DNA of 32,081 nt. It comes from a virus. The translations under genes were made by a program, and so were the position numbers. Location of the stretch: positions 1 to 32,081 of IMG/VR virus record IMGVR_UViG_3300028388_000943. One strand, 5' to 3'. Positions within the stretch are counted from its first letter, which is position 1. Each line of letters opens with the position of its first letter. This document shows positions 11,496 through 32,015 of the stretch, piece by piece. A model generated the notes under the pieces. It ran no database searches. It had not been told where the DNA came from and worked only from the letters and a program-made list of their open reading frames with translations.

Positions 11496-11639
11496 GTGGC
11501 TAAGAACAGGAAGCCAAATCCAATGGCTAAGGATGTGAGGCAACCTAAGTACAGGCCACGGGTTATTCGACTCAAAAACAAGGTTCTCAACAGGAAGAGA
11601 AAGCATAAGAAGGATGGTAGCCTACTACAACGAGATTGA
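11496..11639 (+). CDS. Small highly basic phage protein (47 aa)
   Basis: A 47-residue frame starts at GTG 11496 behind a good GAGGG ribosome binding site. The product begins (M)AKNRKPNPMAKDVRQPKYRP and continues with RVIRLKNKV and a KRKHKK cluster. This MAK..NPMAKD.R.PKY.PRV pattern is common to very small basic proteins of many tailed phages, so I think it is real although short. Its charge suggests RNA or DNA binding; no function is established to my knowledge. The 3' end overlaps the methyltransferase start by 26 bases. Confidence 0.75.
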   Translation: MAKNRKPNPMAKDVRQPKYRPRVIRLKNKVLNRKRKHKKDGSLLQRD

Positions 11640-12696
11640 TCCGTTTAAAGTAAACTGGCTAAGGAACTTAATTAAAGAGGGGTTGATTGCAGACGGTGTG
11701 GTAGACGACAGAGATATTAGGGACGTCACTCCACAAGAACTAACAGAATTTACCCAATGTCATTTTTTCGCAGGGATCGGTATCTGGTCCTACTCTCTCA
11801 GAAAAGCAGGATGGTCTGATGAAAAACCCGTCTGGACAGGAAGTTGCCCCTGTCAATCTTTCTCCACGGCTGGCAAAGGAAAAGGGTTTGATGACGAGCG
11901 GCACCTATGGCCCTACTGGCATTACCTCGTCAAAGAGTGCCGACCTAGCCACGTTTTTGGTGAGCAGGTTGCAACGCCGCTTGGACTCGACTGGTTCGAC
12001 CTTGTACAGACTGACATGGAAGGTGAGAACTACGCGATTGCAGCGTTCGATCTATGCGCTGCGGGCGTGGGTGCGCCGCACATCAGACAAAGACTTTTCT
12101 TCGTCGCCTACGATCTTGAACCTTCCCCAAGTAGGGTGGACAACAGCATCAGCAAGGGACCACAAGGATACACCGGGAATGGTTTCCAGGAGGAAGGACA
12201 ACAAGGGAAGACTGGACCAACTTCCGAGGCAAAGTTACCTAACTCACTGGCCAACACCCAACACGGTAAACAACGGGAAAGGGGAAGACTACCAAGCAAA
12301 AATAAAGAGAGGCATGAACCCGGGCTTGAACCCAGCGGATGCAGCACTACTGACACACTGGCCGACACCTCAAGCACAATCACCAAACTCACTGAGAGGA
12401 AAAGGGGGCGACCCGGTAAAAAGAAAGGAGCAGGGAAGACAAGTAAACTTAACCGATGCTGTGAACTATCTACCTCCAGAAACCCCTGCCCGACTAACGG
12501 CTACTGGAGAGATGCTGATTGGCTCTTCTGCCGGGATGGAAAATGGAGGCCAGTTAGACCCGGATCATCCCCGTTGGTTACTGGGGCTACCAAAAGAGTG
12601 GGGAAACTGCGCGGATATGGAGACGGAATAGTTGCACCATTGGCAACTGAATTTATCAGGAGTTATCTAGACTATGAAATCCTACAAAACAATTAA
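11614..12696 (+). CDS. DNA C5-cytosine methyltransferase
   Basis: A 360-residue enzyme that would transfer a methyl group from S-adenosylmethionine to C5 of cytosine. Motif I is CHFFAGIGIWSYSLRKAGW, the catalytic loop is GSCPCQSFS with nucleophile C80, the motif VI position reads VFGEQVA (E117; classical enzymes have ENV), and motif VIII is PHIRQRLFFVA. The C-terminal block NGYWRDADWLFCRDGKWRP and GYGDGIVAPLATEF is the form seen in phage Dcm-like enzymes. Residues 170-300, where the target-recognition region should lie, are polar and low in complexity, and exactly this stretch is overprinted by another long ORF. It likely protects phage DNA from restriction. It overlaps the genes on both sides. 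Confidence 0.92.
   Translation: MVAYYNEIDPFKVNWLRNLIKEGLIADGVVDDRDIRDVTPQELTEFTQCHFFAGIGIWSYSLRKAGWSDEKPVWTGSCPCQSFSTAGKGKGFDDERHLWPYWHYLVKECRPSHVFGEQVATPLGLDWFDLVQTDMEGENYAIAAFDLCAAGVGAPHIRQRLFFVAYDLEPSPSRVDNSISKGPQGYTGNGFQEEGQQGKTGPTSEAKLPNSLANTQHGKQRERGRLPSKNKERHEPGLEPSGCSTTDTLADTSSTITKLTERKRGRPGKKKGAGKTSKLNRCCELSTSRNPCPTNGYWRDADWLFCRDGKWRPVRPGSSPLVTGATKRVGKLRGYGDGIVAPLATEFIRSYLDYEILQNN
11819..12631 (+). CDS. Overprinted methyltransferase-associated protein, alternative frame
   Basis: A 270-residue frame lies entirely within the cytosine methyltransferase gene in another reading frame. It is not a random shadow in appearance. It contains GSTLYRLTWK, SIYALRAWVRRTSD, repeated LTHWPTPN and LTHWPTPQ segments, PARLTATGEMLIGSSAGMEN and a HPRWLLGLPKEW C-terminus. 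From memory these are hallmarks of a phage/prophage protein group often labelled DNA methylase-associated or hypothetical. There is no SAM-binding or catalytic motif. The start may be ATG 11819 (AGGATGG upstream) or ATG 11891 (AAAGGAAAAGGG upstream, giving 246 residues). Function is unknown; a partner or specificity subunit of the methyltransferase is one possibility. Confidence 0.6.
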   Translation: MKNPSGQEVAPVNLSPRLAKEKGLMTSGTYGPTGITSSKSADLATFLVSRLQRRLDSTGSTLYRLTWKVRTTRLQRSIYALRAWVRRTSDKDFSSSPTILNLPQVGWTTASARDHKDTPGMVSRRKDNKGRLDQLPRQSYLTHWPTPNTVNNGKGEDYQAKIKRGMNPGLNPADAALLTHWPTPQAQSPNSLRGKGGDPVKRKEQGRQVNLTDAVNYLPPETPARLTATGEMLIGSSAGMENGGQLDPDHPRWLLGLPKEWGNCADMETE

Positions 12697-13522
12697 GGAA
12701 GATGTGTACCATGTTCTCAGGACAGGCGAAGGATATACAGAAGAAATCGCAGAATGGGTCGCTCAGGACATTGCACAGTCGTTGCTCAGGCAACTTGTCC
12801 GATCCGATGATGACAAGCCCCGCCTACGCCTTAGTCAAATTGGAACTCCATGCGAAAGGAAACTTTGGTACTCAATCAATCGCCCAACTAGTTCTGAGCC
12901 TCTACCTGCCTCAGCAAAGAATAAGTTCATTTTTGGTGACCTTACAGAGTCTCACGTTCTCGGACTCTGTATGGCAGCAGGGCACATCGTCGGGGGAATG
13001 CAAGATACTGTGGACGTTGTGGGTGTATCAGGCAGTAGAGACTGCATTATCGACGGAATGCTCTTTGACGTTAAAAGTGCCTCCACAAGAGGGCTTGAAA
13101 AGTTTAAGGGAAACGGGCTACTGCGAGACGATCCTTTTGGATACCTCAGCCAACTGTCATCCTACCTCTATGGAAGTAGAAATGACCCTCTACTAGAGTA
13201 CAAGACAAAGGCAGGTTTCATCGCAGTAGACAAGCAGTTCGGCCATATCGAAGTTGATGTGTATGATCTTACTGAGTTCCTGGACAAGAAAGAAGAAGAA
13301 GTAAACGGCAAGAAGAAGGTAGTAAAGTCTAAAACTCCTCCTCCCCGTGCCTTTGGACCGGAACCTCATGGTAAGAGCGGCAACATGAAACTTTGTACCC
13401 AATGTTCCTACTGCGACCATAAGAGAGAGTGCTGGCCTAACCTTCGTACCTTCCTCTACAGTAATGGGCCTATCTATTTCACAGAGGTTGCAAAGGAACC
13501 AGAGGTTATGGAGATTAAGTGA
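12674..13522 (+). CDS. PD-(D/E)XK exonuclease with Fe-S cysteines (Cas4/RecB-like)
   Basis: A 282-residue nuclease. The core is DCIIDGMLFDVKSAS, giving the D...DxK metal site, preceded by GDLTESHVLGL with the upstream acidic residue and followed by a Gln/Tyr helix (YLSQLSSYLYG). C60 in GTPCERKLWY plus C241, C244, C247 and C253 (LCTQCSYCDHKREC) are arranged like the four-cysteine Fe-S cluster of Cas4/AddB-type nucleases. In phages such proteins act as recombination or degradation exonucleases in place of T7 gp6. CAGGAG precedes ATG 12674, which overlaps the methyltransferase gene by 23 bases. Confidence 0.88.
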   Translation: MKSYKTIKEDVYHVLRTGEGYTEEIAEWVAQDIAQSLLRQLVRSDDDKPRLRLSQIGTPCERKLWYSINRPTSSEPLPASAKNKFIFGDLTESHVLGLCMAAGHIVGGMQDTVDVVGVSGSRDCIIDGMLFDVKSASTRGLEKFKGNGLLRDDPFGYLSQLSSYLYGSRNDPLLEYKTKAGFIAVDKQFGHIEVDVYDLTEFLDKKEEEVNGKKKVVKSKTPPPRAFGPEPHGKSGNMKLCTQCSYCDHKRECWPNLRTFLYSNGPIYFTEVAKEPEVMEIK

Positions 13523-13534
13523 AGGATGATGACA

Positions 13535-14134
13535 ATGATACCTTATGAAGTTAGGAAGGTAAGTTCTCTTGAAGGTAGAGACTTCATAAAAGAACACCAT
13601 TACTCTAAAGGTTGTCACAATAGACCCTCACCTTGCTATGGATTGTTCGATAAAGAAGATATGATAGGTTGTTTAGTATTCTCTACACCTTGTTCAGAGG
13701 CAGTTAGATCGTCTATCTTCGGGCCTGATTACAAAAGCCATGTCACAGAATTGCATAGGCTTTTTGTTAAAGATGGTACACCTAAGAATACAGAATCTTG
13801 GTTTATTGGCAAATGCCTTAAACTACTTAAGAAAGAGAAGCCGAGTATATGGGCAGTTATAACATTCGCAGATTCTACAGAAGGCCACAAGGGAGTTATC
13901 TACAAAGCGACAAATGCAAAATTTTGTGGTATGACTTCTAAAGCAACTTTCTATTTGGATAGAGAAGGTAGGCTTAGACACCCAAGACAGAATGGTGTTA
14001 ATATAACAACGGACGAAGCTATAACTAGAGGTTGGTGCCCTGTTAAAAGATTCTCTAAGTATCGTTACCTGTACTTACTACCAGATTCTAAAAAGCACAA
14101 GAAACAATTAAGGGAGTTGTGCCGGTATTACTAA
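13535..14134 (+). CDS. Mom-like DNA adenine modification protein (GNAT fold)
   Basis: A 199-residue protein resembling phage Mu Mom and its relatives. Conserved features I recognise are KEHHYSKG near the N-terminus, CLVFSTPCSEAVRSSIFGP, VTELHRLFVKDGTPKNTESW, VITFADSTEGHKGVIYKATN, and TFYLDREGRLRHPRQNGVNI near the C-terminus. Mu Mom is a GNAT-related enzyme that converts adenine in DNA to a carbamoylmethyl derivative and blocks many restriction enzymes. The same chemistry is plausible here but unproved. I prefer ATG 13535, eight bases after AAGGA; ATG 13526 is the alternative. No com-like regulator is visible next to it. The gene is more AT-rich than its neighbours, which suggests separate acquisition. 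Confidence 0.85.
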   Translation: MIPYEVRKVSSLEGRDFIKEHHYSKGCHNRPSPCYGLFDKEDMIGCLVFSTPCSEAVRSSIFGPDYKSHVTELHRLFVKDGTPKNTESWFIGKCLKLLKKEKPSIWAVITFADSTEGHKGVIYKATNAKFCGMTSKATFYLDREGRLRHPRQNGVNITTDEAITRGWCPVKRFSKYRYLYLLPDSKKHKKQLRELCRYY

Positions 14135-20817: not shown

Positions 20818-21275
20818 TATGCGGCCTCCTTTTCCTGTTTGATATTCCAAGCGTTACGGAATGAACGGTCGGATGGGATAAGATGTCTAGGGACAATCTT
20901 CAAAATAGTCCTGTTGCCTTTATAGTCCTTCCAGACCCTCTCAGGGATATCCTTCTGGATCAAGTACTCCATAGCTTCCTCCTCGGTCATTGCCGGGATC
21001 GGAGGGGTCTCATGGAGCAGGTGCCCACGGGTGTGGCGTTTAAATCCCGGTTGAGCCTCGTCCTTTTTAAGTTCCCAGTAGACCCACACGGGCGGCAGAA
21101 GGCCACCGTGGAGGGCCATAGCGAGCCACTCAGGGGCAGGATTGGTGACCTTGCAGGGTGCATCAGGATCGTCGGGGTCTTCCCAGAGGATCGCGTATTT
21201 AGGCTCGACCCTCTCAAGGTTCTTATGTGCCCAAGCGATTCTCTCGTATAGCTTATACTGTTCAGCGTTTTTCAT
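20817..21275 (-). CDS. Hypothetical tail-region protein (152 aa)
   Basis: A 152-residue protein starting MKNAEQYKLYERIAWAHKNL and ending HLIPSDRSFRNAWNIKQEKE. The middle has several Pro/Trp-rich segments (PPVWVYWELKKDE, ETPPIPAMTEEEAMEYLIQKD). The C-terminal DRSFRNAW is shared with the next gene product. Its start overlaps the last of the five paralogous fibre-tip genes by four bases (ATGA), so it is part of the tail-tip transcript. Function is unknown; fibre assembly or capping is a positional guess. Confidence 0.7.
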   Translation of the reverse strand: MKNAEQYKLYERIAWAHKNLERVEPKYAILWEDPDDPDAPCKVTNPAPEWLAMALHGGLLPPVWVYWELKKDEAQPGFKRHTRGHLLHETPPIPAMTEEEAMEYLIQKDIPERVWKDYKGNRTILKIVPRHLIPSDRSFRNAWNIKQEKEAA

Positions 21276-21652
21276 GCGTACTCTCCATATGCTCCTACTC
21301 CACTACCACCTGCGGTTATTGCAGAACTCCCGATGTCATAGGTTCCGTAGGTGTTTGCTGTTGATAGTCCGTTGACCCCGGCACTAGATCGGTAACTAGG
21401 GCGGTCACCACTTCCACCCCACCCGTAATCCCCATAACCGTAGGTAGCCGCAGCAGCATTGATAAGGTTGAGCGTGTATACTGCTGTCCCAAGATCGGTA
21501 AACGAGGAGATATTGAACGCATCAAAATAACCCGCTGCGGTGGGATCGTCACTATCACAGTAAGTGTAGTACAGCTCTTGCCCACCGATTAGAAGATCAG
21601 CGGGAACCGTGTCTACACCGTCAGTTACTTCATCAAGTATTAGGCCGCTCAT
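21272..21652 (-). CDS. Fibre-tip paralogue 5 of the tandem array
   Basis: A 126-residue Gly/Ser/Tyr-rich protein, the most diverged of five consecutive related genes. The core NISSFTDLGTAVYTLNLINA aligns with NVSS.TD.GTG.Y...FSNA of the others, and it ends in the array's shared G-x-[LFY]-A form (GEYA). The C-terminal half is a Gly-rich region (GDYGWGGSGDRPSYRS) suited to a surface-exposed tip. It overlaps its neighbours by four bases on both sides. A receptor-contacting or decoration role is inferred from family resemblance and position. Confidence 0.7.
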   Translation of the reverse strand: MSGLILDEVTDGVDTVPADLLIGGQELYYTYCDSDDPTAAGYFDAFNISSFTDLGTAVYTLNLINAAAATYGYGDYGWGGSGDRPSYRSSAGVNGLSTANTYGTYDIGSSAITAGGSGVGAYGEYA

Positions 21653-22008
21653 GCTAAATCCCCCCTAACAAACAGGGCGTTGTCCTTATCGCCAAAAGAG
21701 ATGGTACTTACATCCCAAGTGAGACCTTCTTCGGAACTGGTGGTTGGAGTCCCGCCTCCCTTGAAGTTACAATCGTTAGCAATAGGAGCGCCAAAAATAT
21801 TGTAACCGGCTTCTGTCCTTGAGTTTGTGAAGTTTACTGTAAACTCCCCGGCAGCATCATCAGAAATGCTGGCGACGTTGTAACTCCCTTTTACTACGTT
21901 ACCACCGATTTGGTCGAAAAGAGCCCAGCATACGCCAGCAGACCGAATTGCCAGAGAAGTCTCAATAGCTGAGGAGCCATTCCTTATGGTTTTCATTGTT
22001 ACGGTCAT
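21649..22008 (-). CDS. Fibre-tip paralogue 4 of the tandem array
   Basis: A 119-residue beta-rich protein. CWALFDQIGGNVVKGSYNVA then SISDDAAGEFTVNFTNSRTE is clearly related to paralogue 3 (AWLWFDQSGGNIVRGSSNIS) and to the others. The C-terminus DKDNALFVRGDLA repeats the GDLA ending of paralogue 1. In marine phages this AW..F...G..V...YNVSS.TD.GTG.Y.V.F repeat is usually a domain of a longer tail fibre; here it is a stand-alone gene. ATGA overlaps join it to both neighbours. Confidence 0.72.
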   Translation of the reverse strand: MTVTMKTIRNGSSAIETSLAIRSAGVCWALFDQIGGNVVKGSYNVASISDDAAGEFTVNFTNSRTEAGYNIFGAPIANDCNFKGGGTPTTSSEEGLTWDVSTISFGDKDNALFVRGDLA

Positions 22009-22385
22009 GCAAATACCCCTCTAGCCGTACTTCCTACCTCTCTGTCTGTATATGACGCAGCACTATCGTCCCAAGTCAAAACCGTGTACTCAGTTGTCGT
22101 CGGGTCGCGACGGCCTCTAAGAGTGTCACCACCTTGGGATATAGCAGATTGCACTACAGAGGTTGCAGCTTCAGCGTTGCTCGTAAAGTTTCCATCGTGT
22201 TCCCCGGCAGTTACATCAGTGACAGAAGAGATGTTAGAACTACCCCTAACTATATTTCCACCGGACTGATCGAACCAGAGCCACGCGAGGCAAGCATTCC
22301 TGACCAGATGCTCCATCGAAATGGTTTTTCCGGGGTAATCGCCGTCCTCTGGTGCTTCGATATTAGAGGCGACTAGAGTGCTCAT
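22005..22385 (-). CDS. Fibre-tip paralogue 3 of the tandem array
   Basis: A 126-residue protein, MSTLVASNIEAPEDGDYPGK..., with an N-terminal adaptor-like segment, the conserved core (CLAWLWFDQSGGNIVRGSSN, ISSVTDVTAGEHDGNF) and a variable C-terminal half ending GVFA. The core is closest to paralogue 4. The N-terminal TLVASNIE... segment resembles short attachment segments that hold fibre domains to a base. It overlaps the flanking genes by four bases each. Confidence 0.72.
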   Translation of the reverse strand: MSTLVASNIEAPEDGDYPGKTISMEHLVRNACLAWLWFDQSGGNIVRGSSNISSVTDVTAGEHDGNFTSNAEAATSVVQSAISQGGDTLRGRRDPTTTEYTVLTWDDSAASYTDREVGSTARGVFA

Positions 22386-22762
22386 GCTAACGTCCCCCAG
22401 CCCTGCCCGTTGTTGGCGTCATAGTCCGTAGCGGTTGCCCCTGTGTTTCGAATAACGCACCCCCAACCGTCAGTGGCCTTGTTCTTGTTACCTCCAGAAG
22501 AGTGAGTATAAGCGGCATTGTTCGTAGTAGAGTCTCCACCTGTTACGCTGCTCGACCAATTACCATCGCTGAACGCATTAGTTAGAGTATAAGATAGAAT
22601 ACCGGTCCCAACATCAGTCACAGAGGTCACGTTGAGAGACCCGTCAACGGAGTCACCCGTCTGGTTGTAATCGTACCAAAACTTAGCGACTCCACCAGAG
22701 ACCGAATACTCCGTACCACCGGCAGAAGGCTTCGCGTTATCAAATGCAATCGTGCTGGTCAT
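22382..22762 (-). CDS. Fibre-tip paralogue 2 of the tandem array
   Basis: A 126-residue protein with the array core AKFWYDYNQTGDSVDGSLNV then TSVTDVGTGILSYTLTNAFS, followed by a Ser/Asn/Gly-rich variable region and the ending GWGTLA. It is closest to paralogue 1 in the VTD.GTG.Y motif. Variable loops on a fixed beta core are what receptor-binding tips usually show. Start and stop overlap neighbours as ATGA. Confidence 0.72.
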   Translation of the reverse strand: MTSTIAFDNAKPSAGGTEYSVSGGVAKFWYDYNQTGDSVDGSLNVTSVTDVGTGILSYTLTNAFSDGNWSSSVTGGDSTTNNAAYTHSSGGNKNKATDGWGCVIRNTGATATDYDANNGQGWGTLA

Positions 22763-23112
22763 GCGAGGTCTCCCATTACGGTATGGTTAGTATCCCTGTC
22801 TGTTGCTGCTGGGGTGGTAGACCAGACGCTTACTTCAACGACACTGGCGGATATAGTTTGGTTGGCAACTAGATCGGCGCTTGCCCCTCGCTCGCACGCG
22901 ACAGGGGCGTATAGGGTACCAGCCATAGCGTTAGAGAATGTATACTGGTAATCTCCAGTACCGTTGTCAGTACCGCTCGATACGTTATAACCGGCGGTTA
23001 CAACCGCTGCGCTGCTCAAATTTACCCAAGCCTTAGCAGCACTCTGCCCCGTGAGTTCCGTAGGCCCCGTCCCCGCTGCATCGGAGAGGGTAGTTGCTCT
23101 TAGTTCACTCAT
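22759..23112 (-). CDS. Fibre-tip paralogue 1 of the tandem array
   Basis: A 117-residue protein, first of five tandem paralogues after the fibre gene. AAKAWVNLSSAAVVTAGYNV then SSGTDNGTGDYQYTFSNAM matches very well the AWVNF.GT..V..SFNVSS.TDNGTGDY...FT.AM domain I know from many phage tail fibres. It ends GDLA. It starts 12 bases after the fibre stop with its own purine-rich site and overlaps the next paralogue by four bases. Confidence 0.75.
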   Translation of the reverse strand: MSELRATTLSDAAGTGPTELTGQSAAKAWVNLSSAAVVTAGYNVSSGTDNGTGDYQYTFSNAMAGTLYAPVACERGASADLVANQTISASVVEVSVWSTTPAATDRDTNHTVMGDLA

Positions 23113-28670: not shown

Positions 28671-31286
28671 TTAACCTCTACCCGTTGTAGGTTGACGAAG
28701 ACCAAAAGTTTTTCTCATTGCCCTGTAGGTAGGACCACCATTCTGGATATCTCTAGAGATCACTTGGCCAATAACAACTTCCAAGTTTTGACCATTTTGT
28801 TTAACTTCGGCCTGTTCGTTGCTGTAGTTATTGATTACGACATTAACAGGAGATCCGCCGCCACTACTAGCAACACCGAGTTTACCATCAGAGCCGCGTT
28901 TAAGAGGAAGGATAGCCTCTGGACCAGCCTCACCCATCAAGCCTACACCTTTAGCCATAGGGAAGTAAGTAGGACTAGAAACAACGCCACCAGAAGCAAA
29001 GGGCTGAACTCTACCGTTTTCAAACACGTTGCCGTCTGCATTCTTTCCAACTGATGTAGCAAAACCAGAAAACGAACCTATCATAGGTTCCATCGCAGCG
29101 ACAAGTCTCTGGACGATAAGGATTCTAAAGAGTTCGTTGATAATCTCCTGAGCCATCCGTTTGAAAGCCTCGCCCATGCTTTCAGTGCCATCAACAATTG
29201 ACATAAGGCCAGACTCAAAACTACTCGAAATACTTTCGCTAAGATCGGCAACCTCTTCCTTGTTACGCTCAATCTCTTTAATCAGTTCCTTCTGGGCTAG
29301 GATAGCCTTGACAGTAGCACTATCAGCGATAGTACCCCACTGCTCCCAAGTAATACCGAGTTCCCTGATAATGTCTACTTCGTCTTCAGACAGGTCGAGG
29401 AGTTGTCGTTCCAGTTTGATCTGCTCGTAGAGTTTAGCAATCTTTTCATCAAGGGTTTCTTCCCTAGAGCCTCCACCTCTTGATCTCTTCGTATCTTCTG
29501 GTTCTTTCCAGGGGTTCTCACCGATAGGCATAGACATTACGGTGTCTTCTTGAGCCAACTGGACAATCATGGATGCATTGGCAAGACTGATCTTAAGATT
29601 TTCCGCAAGAAGTCTAGCCGCTTCAGCAGCAGTAGTAATACCAGAGTTAATGTCTACACCTGCCAGAGCAAGAGCAGCCCTGTAGGAGGAACCAAGTTCT
29701 TCTTGTAGTTTTTCGCCCTCTTCAACCTGTAGACGAAGTTGCTCTTCTACTTGGATGTTTCCGTTAAGGATTTCATTTGTAACATCCCTCACACCAATGT
29801 GAAGGTCTTTGGCACGTTTAATCAGATCAAGTTGTTCTTGACGTTTTTTAGCAGCCTCCTCTTCACGTTTATTTCTTTGTTCTTGATACCGAAGGTCTTG
29901 TTGGTGACGAAGTTCGTCAAGTTTTCTTTGTTCTTCGGCTGCTTTCCTTTCGTCTTCTTCTGCTTTTGCCCTAGCTGCTGCACGTTGCTGGATTTGTACC
30001 ATCACTTCGTTACTATAGTTCTGCAACTGCTCAGTACGTCTTTGGTAAGCAGCCTCAAGCCTAGCCGCTTCTTCTTCTTGACGAGCCTTGTCTTCTTCAG
30101 CCAAGCGTTCCTTTTCTTCTGCAAGTTCTCTTTCTTTTGCAGTAGCCATCCTAGCTGCTTCTTCTTGTGCAGCAGTTAGTCCAGCAATAAATTGGATGAG
30201 CTCTTCAGACAAATCTTCGTCTGGAGTAATCTCTGAGGTAAGTTTAGTAATAATCCTTTCGAAGTCTTTAGCCAGCCACTCGGCATCTTTATAGCCAATC
30301 CTAAACCAGCCGACAGCGAGATTAATACTTTCCTGCAAATTGGCTAGACGCTCTGGACTCCAGTCTTCTCCAAGATCGTCAAGGATAGGCTGCATAGCCC
30401 TCTCTTGATAGTCAGAGATACCGTTGGCATTGGGACCATAGTCAAAAGGATTTAAGAAGACTCCTAGATCGGAAAAACTGGCTTTAGTAAAATCCATGAT
30501 TTGGGCAAAAAACCCTTCTGGACGCCGTGGCATTATACCTTCGACAGCAGCCTCACTAACTTCAGCAAGTTCTCTCCTCAACTCTTCTAGTCTTATCCCT
30601 TCAACGGCTTTAGCAACATTCCTGATGCTTTCAGCAAGACGGCCAAAGTCTTCTTCTATTTCAGGAGTTGACGAATGTATCCTACCAAGAATTTTCTCGT
30701 ACTCGTCGAAGGCGTCATTTAGTTCCTGCATATTTTTTTCGACGTCTTCTGCTTTTTTAGACGCTTCGATCAAAGGAGCAATAAATGCAGTACCAATAGC
30801 AACACCAGCACCAGCGAGGGCACCGCCAGCACCAAAAATACCAAGAAGCTGGGACATCTGCTGACCGAACGCAACGGCTACGTTGGTACCACCCTGCATC
30901 TGAACAGCAAAGTCACCAACCTGGTAGCCTACCTGCTGAAGACCAACAGAAGCAAACCTTTTAGACCTCTGGGTAGCACCGTAGATAGCGTTGTTGTATC
31001 TAGCCAGTTGGTTACCACCATCGACAGCACCGTGTTTAAGAGCAGCTAGACTACGTTGAGCCTCGTCTACAGCAGCAGCAAATTGACGTTGTGTAAGTGA
31101 ACCCTCTTTTAGACCTTGCCGATAGCCTTTAATTCTTTTGTCGACGGCCAAAATTGCGTCAGCCATACCCATTTCAGAACGGATAATACCATCGGCAGAA
31201 CGTTGAACACGCTTTGCACCAGACATAAAAGCCTTGTCATCAAACATCAGTTTGATAGTGTAAACAAAATCACTTAGAGTTGGCAT
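28671..31286 (-). CDS. Tape measure protein
   Basis: An 871-residue protein that sets tail length and is ejected at infection. The N-terminal region is helical (FDDKAFMSGAKRVQRSADG). A hydrophobic Gly/Ala stretch at about residues 145-175 (LLGIFGAGGALAGAGVAIGT) is a likely membrane-inserting segment. A long Glu/Ala/Arg/Lys coiled coil (about 370-500) follows, then a Gly-rich C-terminus with the tape-measure ending LMGEAGPEAILPLKRGSDG. At roughly 0.15 nm per residue the tail would be about 130 nm long. It lies downstream of the G/GT chaperones with a 17-base overlap. Confidence 0.93.
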   Translation of the reverse strand: MPTLSDFVYTIKLMFDDKAFMSGAKRVQRSADGIIRSEMGMADAILAVDKRIKGYRQGLKEGSLTQRQFAAAVDEAQRSLAALKHGAVDGGNQLARYNNAIYGATQRSKRFASVGLQQVGYQVGDFAVQMQGGTNVAVAFGQQMSQLLGIFGAGGALAGAGVAIGTAFIAPLIEASKKAEDVEKNMQELNDAFDEYEKILGRIHSSTPEIEEDFGRLAESIRNVAKAVEGIRLEELRRELAEVSEAAVEGIMPRRPEGFFAQIMDFTKASFSDLGVFLNPFDYGPNANGISDYQERAMQPILDDLGEDWSPERLANLQESINLAVGWFRIGYKDAEWLAKDFERIITKLTSEITPDEDLSEELIQFIAGLTAAQEEAARMATAKERELAEEKERLAEEDKARQEEEAARLEAAYQRRTEQLQNYSNEVMVQIQQRAAARAKAEEDERKAAEEQRKLDELRHQQDLRYQEQRNKREEEAAKKRQEQLDLIKRAKDLHIGVRDVTNEILNGNIQVEEQLRLQVEEGEKLQEELGSSYRAALALAGVDINSGITTAAEAARLLAENLKISLANASMIVQLAQEDTVMSMPIGENPWKEPEDTKRSRGGGSREETLDEKIAKLYEQIKLERQLLDLSEDEVDIIRELGITWEQWGTIADSATVKAILAQKELIKEIERNKEEVADLSESISSSFESGLMSIVDGTESMGEAFKRMAQEIINELFRILIVQRLVAAMEPMIGSFSGFATSVGKNADGNVFENGRVQPFASGGVVSSPTYFPMAKGVGLMGEAGPEAILPLKRGSDGKLGVASSGGGSPVNVVINNYSNEQAEVKQNGQNLEVVIGQVISRDIQNGGPTYRAMRKTFGLRQPTTGRG

Positions 31287-31677
31287 GGTAAGTCCTTATG
31301 TAAGCGTTATCCAGCCTCTTGATAAGTTCAACATCAAAAGCCGACAATGGATTTTCTGTCAATTCTGACCAGTACTTTATTTCTACTAGCGAAATAGGGT
31401 TGGGTCCATTCATACCCACTGTGCGAAGGCTGTTCAAACTAAGAAAGGCAGACCAGATGTACTCCAAGAGGTACGGGAACTCAGGTCCATCCAACTCTTT
31501 AGGTCGTACACCAGTCTGCCTTTCAACCTGTTCTAAATGATCTCGTAGTGCAATACCATTCTGATCGACTTGATTGAGTTCAAACTCATGTTCAGCGAAC
31601 TCCACTAGACTGTCGATCAGTTCTTGGTAAAATCCGTGGCTTGTGCAAACGCCTCCTCGATCTGGTTCCTGATCCAA
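31270..31677 (-). CDS. Tail assembly chaperone T domain, probable -1 frameshift product
   Basis: This frame of 135 codons lies between the G-like chaperone and the tape measure. The only early start is a TTG at 31677 with no ribosome binding site, and the next plausible one is an internal GTG, also without one. The frame is offset by -1 from the G-like gene, overlaps it by 61 bases and opens just upstream of 31677. This is the layout of lambda G and GT. A slip at GAT TTT ACC (TTTT at 31629-31632) would give a fusion of about 248 residues. The T part (PYLLEYIWSAFLSLNSLRTV) is helical and would contact the tape measure. Confidence 0.75.
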   Translation of the reverse strand: MDQEPDRGGVCTSHGFYQELIDSLVEFAEHEFELNQVDQNGIALRDHLEQVERQTGVRPKELDGPEFPYLLEYIWSAFLSLNSLRTVGMNGPNPISLVEIKYWSELTENPLSAFDVELIKRLDNAYIRTYHANSK

Positions 31678-32015
31678 AAGATTTCAGTATAGAGTTCGAC
31701 CAGGGCAGGAACAGAACATTCAAGGGTTGTACCTTGGTAAGTAGCATTGACTTCCTTGGTAACTTTAGCCATGAGTTCGATAGCGTCTTTCTCGATTTCT
31801 TCGATATCGACGTCCATCTTACGTTTTTTCTGTGCCCTCTTCAGACGACGATTTTGCTGCTCATGCATAGCCTTCTTGTACTCCTTGGAGTAAGGTGCAT
31901 AGAGCGTAAGCGTCATAGGCGTTTTATCGTCATTGAACAGAGGTTCATACGTACCGGGATGGTAGAGTTCAACAACGACAACATCGGATTTAGGTTTAAG
32001 ATCATTAAGGTCCAT
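31617..32015 (-). CDS. Tail assembly chaperone (G-like)
   Basis: A 132-residue protein, MDLNDLKPKSDVVVVELYHP..., with a beta-rich N-terminus (TLTLYAPYSKEY), a basic helix (NRRLKRAQKKRKMD) and an acidic helical C-terminus (ALVELYTEIFWIRNQIEEAF). The layout fits the chaperones that coat the tape measure before the tail tube forms. AAAGGAAAT precedes ATG 32015. The downstream T frame is reached by a probable -1 ribosomal frameshift near its stop codon. The major tail protein should lie just beyond the window. Confidence 0.82.
   Translation of the reverse strand: MDLNDLKPKSDVVVVELYHPGTYEPLFNDDKTPMTLTLYAPYSKEYKKAMHEQQNRRLKRAQKKRKMDVDIEEIEKDAIELMAKVTKEVNATYQGTTLECSVPALVELYTEIFWIRNQIEEAFAQATDFTKN

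Follow-up and report, generated by a model that had tools for sequence, protein, structure and literature searches.

The virus DNA analysed here (the window, 32,081 nucleotides; its source record is a 32 kb virus fragment) very probably encodes a cytosine-5 DNA methyltransferase that is naturally split, a single stretch of sequence specifying both subunits in two overlapping frames. From the sequences we put this reading at about 0.88, and we infer from it that the subunits form a complex and that the complex is active. The first subunit is specified by a Dcm-frame gene (11614-12696; this and all other features of the locus lie on the + strand), which is open throughout, encodes 360 residues and contains the catalytic PCQ (motif IV, 11848-11856) and NGYWRDADW. 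The second is specified by an ORF of 270 residues (11819-12631) that starts with ATG and lies within the first in the +1 frame, each of its codons comprising positions 2 and 3 of a Dcm codon and position 1 of the next, and containing GSTLYRLTWK, two LTHWPTP segments (12239-12259 and 12350-12370, WPTP repeats being conserved in the alignments) and HPRWLLGLPKEW. In the assembly we propose, the Dcm-frame product (α) would contribute the AdoMet-binding and catalytic domain, with motifs I-VIII, and a helix bearing motif X; between them a flexible linker would occupy the usual place of the target-recognition (TRD) region. The nested product (β), presumably translated from its own start, would contribute a short N-terminal helix and hairpin, the TRD with its repeated W-P-T-P segments, and motif IX. 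Bound together, α and β would form one enzyme, predicted to methylate phage DNA at a site chosen by β.

Each translation matches phage protein families, which bears out the view of a first-pass annotation that both frames resemble real proteins. The Dcm translation matches phrog_363 (E 3e-77) and PF00145 (E 2.5e-13), the nested translation phrog_31772 (E 5.5e-28) and phrog_1008 (E 5.4e-26). The catalytic motifs of PF00145, among them PCQ, an ENV-like motif and RxR, are found in the Dcm frame, where PCQ, EQ and R.R are invariant in the alignment and the fold match is to M.HhaI, but the TRD and motif IX, which a C5-methyltransferase carries in the chain of motifs I-VIII, both sit in the +1 frame. 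Both nested-frame PHROGs are labelled 'DNA methyltransferase', a label that is silent on their other-frame origin and probably hides an overlapping gene. The nested translation has no match in Pfam or NCBIfam, a Pfam scan of 102 nested proteins gave scattered weak matches only, and neither the nested protein nor its profile had a sequence match in the PDB. The same annotation had placed the nested motifs in separate phage proteins, but none was found. In the loci examined the motifs either overlap a C5-methyltransferase gene in the nested frame or are joined to one in the same frame, save for a few frame-disrupted copies, and as far as found the supposed separate proteins are the same nested frame in other phages. 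A pattern search for stand-alone homologues (NPxWVEWLMG) gave matches of which nearly all lie in the +1 frame inside a distant Dcm gene, and the idea of stand-alone 'WPTP' proteins was rejected on that outcome.

Selection on the two frames can be read from mismatch rates at Dcm codon positions 1, 2 and 3 (d1/d2/d3) in pairs of related genes that are 70-96% identical. Upstream of the overlap the rates are 0.12/0.09/0.47. Between PCQ and motif VIII they become 0.20/0.12/0.28, and the TRD gives 0.37/0.11/0.05, with least variation at the third position and most at the first. The C-terminal overlap gives 0.15/0.10/0.13, and the Dcm sequence beyond the nested stop 0.02/0.04/0.21. As sequences recur in different pairs, these rates are not independent, but the contrast is far larger than that explains. 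Third-position mismatch drops from 0.55 to 0.28 at PCQ on a fine scale, which places the start of nested-frame selection about there, and at 10-codon resolution the shift begins at PCQ and stops about 20 codons before the nested stop. Since a nested codon is made of Dcm positions 2, 3 and the following 1, the mismatch pattern of the TRD is exactly the one expected if the nested frame is the coding one. The pattern recurs in more distant nested families and in the copies that bacterial genomes carry. One-frame actinophage genes, in which it is absent, provide a control, with d3/d1 ratios of 1.8 in the TRD and 6.7 in motif IX compared to 0.31 and 0.35 in distant nested genes. Both frames are under selection and dual coding of the locus is as good as certain. 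In the TRD stretch (12148-12471) the nested frame, not the Dcm frame, is the coding frame, and the Dcm residues are unconstrained. This accounts for the polar, low-complexity character that had been pointed out in the Dcm target-recognition region at the overlap, as the Dcm frame there evolves as if its residues were irrelevant. From PCQ on, synonymous sites of the Dcm frame have lost much of their freedom to vary. Along its length the locus switches from dual-coded to nested-only, back to dual-coded and finally to Dcm-only, and loci of this type are among the clearest cases of extended dual coding known from phages.

The identity of the nested protein is indicated by actinophage C5-methyltransferases that are encoded in one frame, such as gp71 of Mycobacterium phage IrishSherpFalk, in which LLPTPTTQDG..LLPTPQGSDG..LLPTPSASDG..RLNPAFPEWMMGWPTGW..IIGNGVVPQQ is read from a single frame. 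These enzymes have a PTP-repeat TRD and an LNPxFxEWMMG motif IX in common with the nested family, and differ in carrying every motif in a single frame with a normal TRD codon-position signature. In hhalign comparisons the nested profile aligned to their TRD and motif IX (probability 94.8, E 4.8e-8, in a comparison where the low-complexity WPTP repeats can inflate profile scores) and the Dcm-frame profile to their motifs I-VIII only (E 1.3e-19). It is the C-terminal two thirds of the nested protein that align in this way, including a motif IX-like block, QLDPDHPRWLLGLPKEW (12551-12601), which pairs with LNPAFPEWMMGWPTGW of the one-frame enzymes; the N-terminal part has no counterpart in them and no PDB match. 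A regular expression for motif IX, applied to 385 loci, never found it in both frames (nested in 328, one-frame in 29, neither in 28). As far as sequence comparison goes, β is homologous to the TRD and motif IX of the one-frame enzymes, whose in-frame copies are nested-frame homologues outside any overlap.

Structure predictions are compatible with this division. In the AlphaFold model of the Dcm frame the catalytic part forms a HhaI-like domain, mostly at pLDDT 88-97, for which the best Foldseek matches are M.HhaI and M.HaeIII (E about 1e-7), and the conserved motif X (GYGDGIVAPLATEFI, 12613-12657) begins a C-terminal helix (residues 341-359, pLDDT about 95). Residues 179-286, at the TRD position, are modelled at pLDDT 34-45 as disordered and devoid of secondary structure. 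The nested protein modelled alone is weak (mean pLDDT 64) and matched no solved fold in Foldseek, save that it contains a better defined helix and hairpin around GSTLYRLTWK (residues 41-80, pLDDT 83-92). This element falls within a segment with alignment invariants and dual constraint (residues 38-85, 11930-12073) that is dual-coded with motifs IV-VIII. A poor model of β by itself fits a subunit that needs its partner, though it is no proof of one.

A separate start for β is suggested by the relatives, most of which have a nested ATG about 42 codons before PCQ. At this D-V site the sequence is GATG, giving the nested ATG, in 66 genes and GACG in 9, against a GAT:GAC count of 272:271 upstream of PCQ generally, and GGAG or similar precedes the ATG in most of the examples printed. 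The approximately 30 residues that follow this upstream ATG show no nested-frame constraint. The window has GACG at the usual site, with a stop codon behind it; lacking the start codon used by most of its relatives, it must begin the nested gene at the ATG at 11819 or elsewhere. The former position is also ATG in 34 of 107 relatives, and 7 bases 5' of it lies a possible ribosome-binding site, AGGA (11808-11811), which is partly dictated by the Dcm codons for A-G-W.

The same observations bear on whether the two frames yield one chain or two. A single chain could be made by recoding, if the ribosome shifted +1 after motif VIII to read the TRD and motif IX and then shifted back to read motif X, and the one-frame actinophage enzymes are examples of this TRD within a single chain. 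However, this scheme needs two shifts, and a frameshift would need neither the nested-frame selection that extends to PCQ, some 90 codons before the TRD, nor a preferred nested ATG with a GGAG-like sequence upstream. Moreover, the Dcm frame is kept open through the TRD, where no stops were seen and 142 would be expected were the nested frame alone to matter, in a test that required a long Dcm ORF and thereby removed 2 of 165 genes. We regard recoding as improbable. No better are the chances of a nested protein that is real but functionally separate, for instance an inhibitor or an anti-restriction factor, and not a methyltransferase subunit. Such a role could be imagined for the N-terminal part, unmatched as it is in the one-frame enzymes and the PDB, but not readily for the two thirds of the protein that align to a TRD and motif IX, the very elements that the Dcm frame lacks.

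Two further readings hold that one of the frames is not a working gene at all. The nested ORF might be a shadow cast by the Dcm sequence and its codon bias. Over PCQ-VIII the nested similarity is indeed in part such a shadow, as the median nested-frame score there is still 59 bits after synonymous shuffling, and frame +2 scores 143 compared to 202 for frame +1. Nevertheless, in held-out genes the observed scores exceed those of the shuffles, the lowest profile score of the nested N part being 100 bits where no shuffle scored above 96, and the median of the C part 178 compared to 31 for shuffles. When the TRD of the window is compared to its relatives, the Dcm frame scores at baseline (median 42, 35 when shuffled) and the nested frame above it (median 88, 32 when shuffled), and within the TRD it is the third Dcm position that is most conserved. 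Stops are absent as well: synonymous shuffles of the window's Dcm gene predict 8.5 in the nested stretch and left it open in 0 of 200, and in 107 non-redundant genes 4.3 nested-frame stops per gene are expected and none was seen in any of these relatives, a comparison made somewhat favourable by the nested stretch having been defined by its openness. The codon-position and shuffle tests together reject the shadow explanation, which is scarcely credible. Equally hard to believe is a dead Dcm frame with the nested frame alone in use, as although the Dcm TRD stretch is unconstrained, that frame is kept open, motifs I-VIII and X are strongly conserved and the codon-position signature outside the overlap is normal.

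The homology, the absence of stops and the lost synonymous freedom thus support what had been proposed from the window by itself, that the locus is dual-coding and conserved, and that the product of one frame may be a partner for that of the other. The arrangement is widespread. By tblastn, 212 phage records contain the nested frame and 400 the Dcm frame, the latter including ordinary methyltransferases. All 80 of the IMG/VR loci fetched by the Dcm protein, and so chosen independently of the nested frame, encode the nested protein, always in +1 and in most cases with an overlap of about 800-1100 bases. With loci from bacterial genomes and a profile scan added, the same register is seen in 298 of 303, the remainder being frame-disrupted copies. 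Most annotations inspected name a single gene, those of K1ind2 and PhiXhv-28 annotating both, and the arrangement is one that occurs, mostly unrecognised, in hundreds of phages. In six loci (L050, L220, L228, L230, L222 and L193) the TRD or motif X is interrupted or in a changed frame; these are probably frameshifted copies, some of them in insect symbionts. Two others (L324 and L337) have the same enzyme spread over three ORFs.

The surroundings of the gene in the window give some indication of its purpose. Genes for a primase/helicase, thymidylate synthase, DNA polymerase and ssDNA-binding protein are followed by the methyltransferase and then by a Cas4-type nuclease, a Mom-like DNA modification gene, RusA, MazG-like and ribonucleotide reductase genes, with the tail genes on the opposite strand to the methyltransferase. 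Because this is a replication and DNA-modification cluster with a Mom-like gene alongside, the methylation would most plausibly serve against host restriction. The Mom-like gene (13526-14134, + strand; phrog_1384, E 5e-54) lies close 3' of the methyltransferase and is preceded by the Cas4-type gene (12674-13522), and the one cluster holds two different DNA modification genes. Elsewhere in the window, five consecutive ORFs of 117-126 residues each run end to start on the - strand (21272-23112), two of them matching the tail-fibre family phrog_11355, and may be a tandem array of small paralogous tail genes. Beside the tape measure gene are two overlapping ORFs (31270-32015, - strand), probably the usual frameshifted pair of tail chaperones, since the downstream one has matches to families of tail assembly chaperones.

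In a tree of the catalytic part, built from a sample that was gathered by nested-type queries, had no conventional outgroup and gave unsettled bootstrap values, the one-frame actinophage clade falls among the nested forms, forking with two of them at 93/95 support. This placement suggests that the one-frame enzymes arose by secondary fusion. More broadly, and with somewhat less than even odds, nested two-subunit coding may be predominant in a large clade of phage cytosine methyltransferases, with the TRD in the overlapping frame, the TRD stretch of α a sequence-free tether that selection keeps open, and the single-chain actinophage enzymes secondary fusions of nested ancestors. Dual coding accounts for a puzzling low-complexity region in hundreds of annotated phage methyltransferases, and places the specificity determinant in a frame absent from most of the annotations inspected. 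Cloning or specificity prediction that considers only the Dcm frame would miss the probable target-reading subunit.

Split enzymes of this class are not without precedent. Lee, Kam and Shaw in 1995 reportedly found the small-subunit gene of M.EcoHK31I (YGGCCR) inside the large-subunit gene, in another frame. The first-pass annotation had thought that such an arrangement would be remarkable and little-described; M.EcoHK31I provides a parallel for it. A literature search, within the limited collection searched, found no paper on the phage nested arrangement. Naturally split C5-methyltransferases are known and active, as exemplified by M.EcoHK31I and M.AquI (PMC3404938, PMC3439449), the former having been used as a split enzyme (PMC3439449). 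The large subunit of M.EcoHK31I is reported to carry motifs I-VIII, motif X and the TRD, and the small subunit motif IX alone (PMC3404938). The phage locus likewise has motifs I-VIII and X in the large, Dcm-frame chain and motif IX in the small, nested one. It differs, as judged from the reported motif layout of M.EcoHK31I, in the TRD, which selection and homology place in the nested subunit. M.EcoHK31I is moreover a restriction-modification enzyme, whereas the gene described here belongs to a phage and no neighbouring endonuclease was found; plasmid searches for an EcoHK31I-like restriction system gave only prophage-like and distant matches. M.AquI (CYCGRG) is divided otherwise, with part of the TRD and motifs IX and X in its small subunit, while phage motif X stays with α. 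A layout like that of M.AquI occurs among the loci only in L336 (4838-5943, - strand), where a single ORF holds the TRD and motifs IX and X and the N-terminal part is separate. By analogy, then, the phage architecture would work like that of M.EcoHK31I, TRD assignment apart, and what is new is the assignment of the TRD to the nested frame, the evidence for dual coding, and the breadth of the arrangement.
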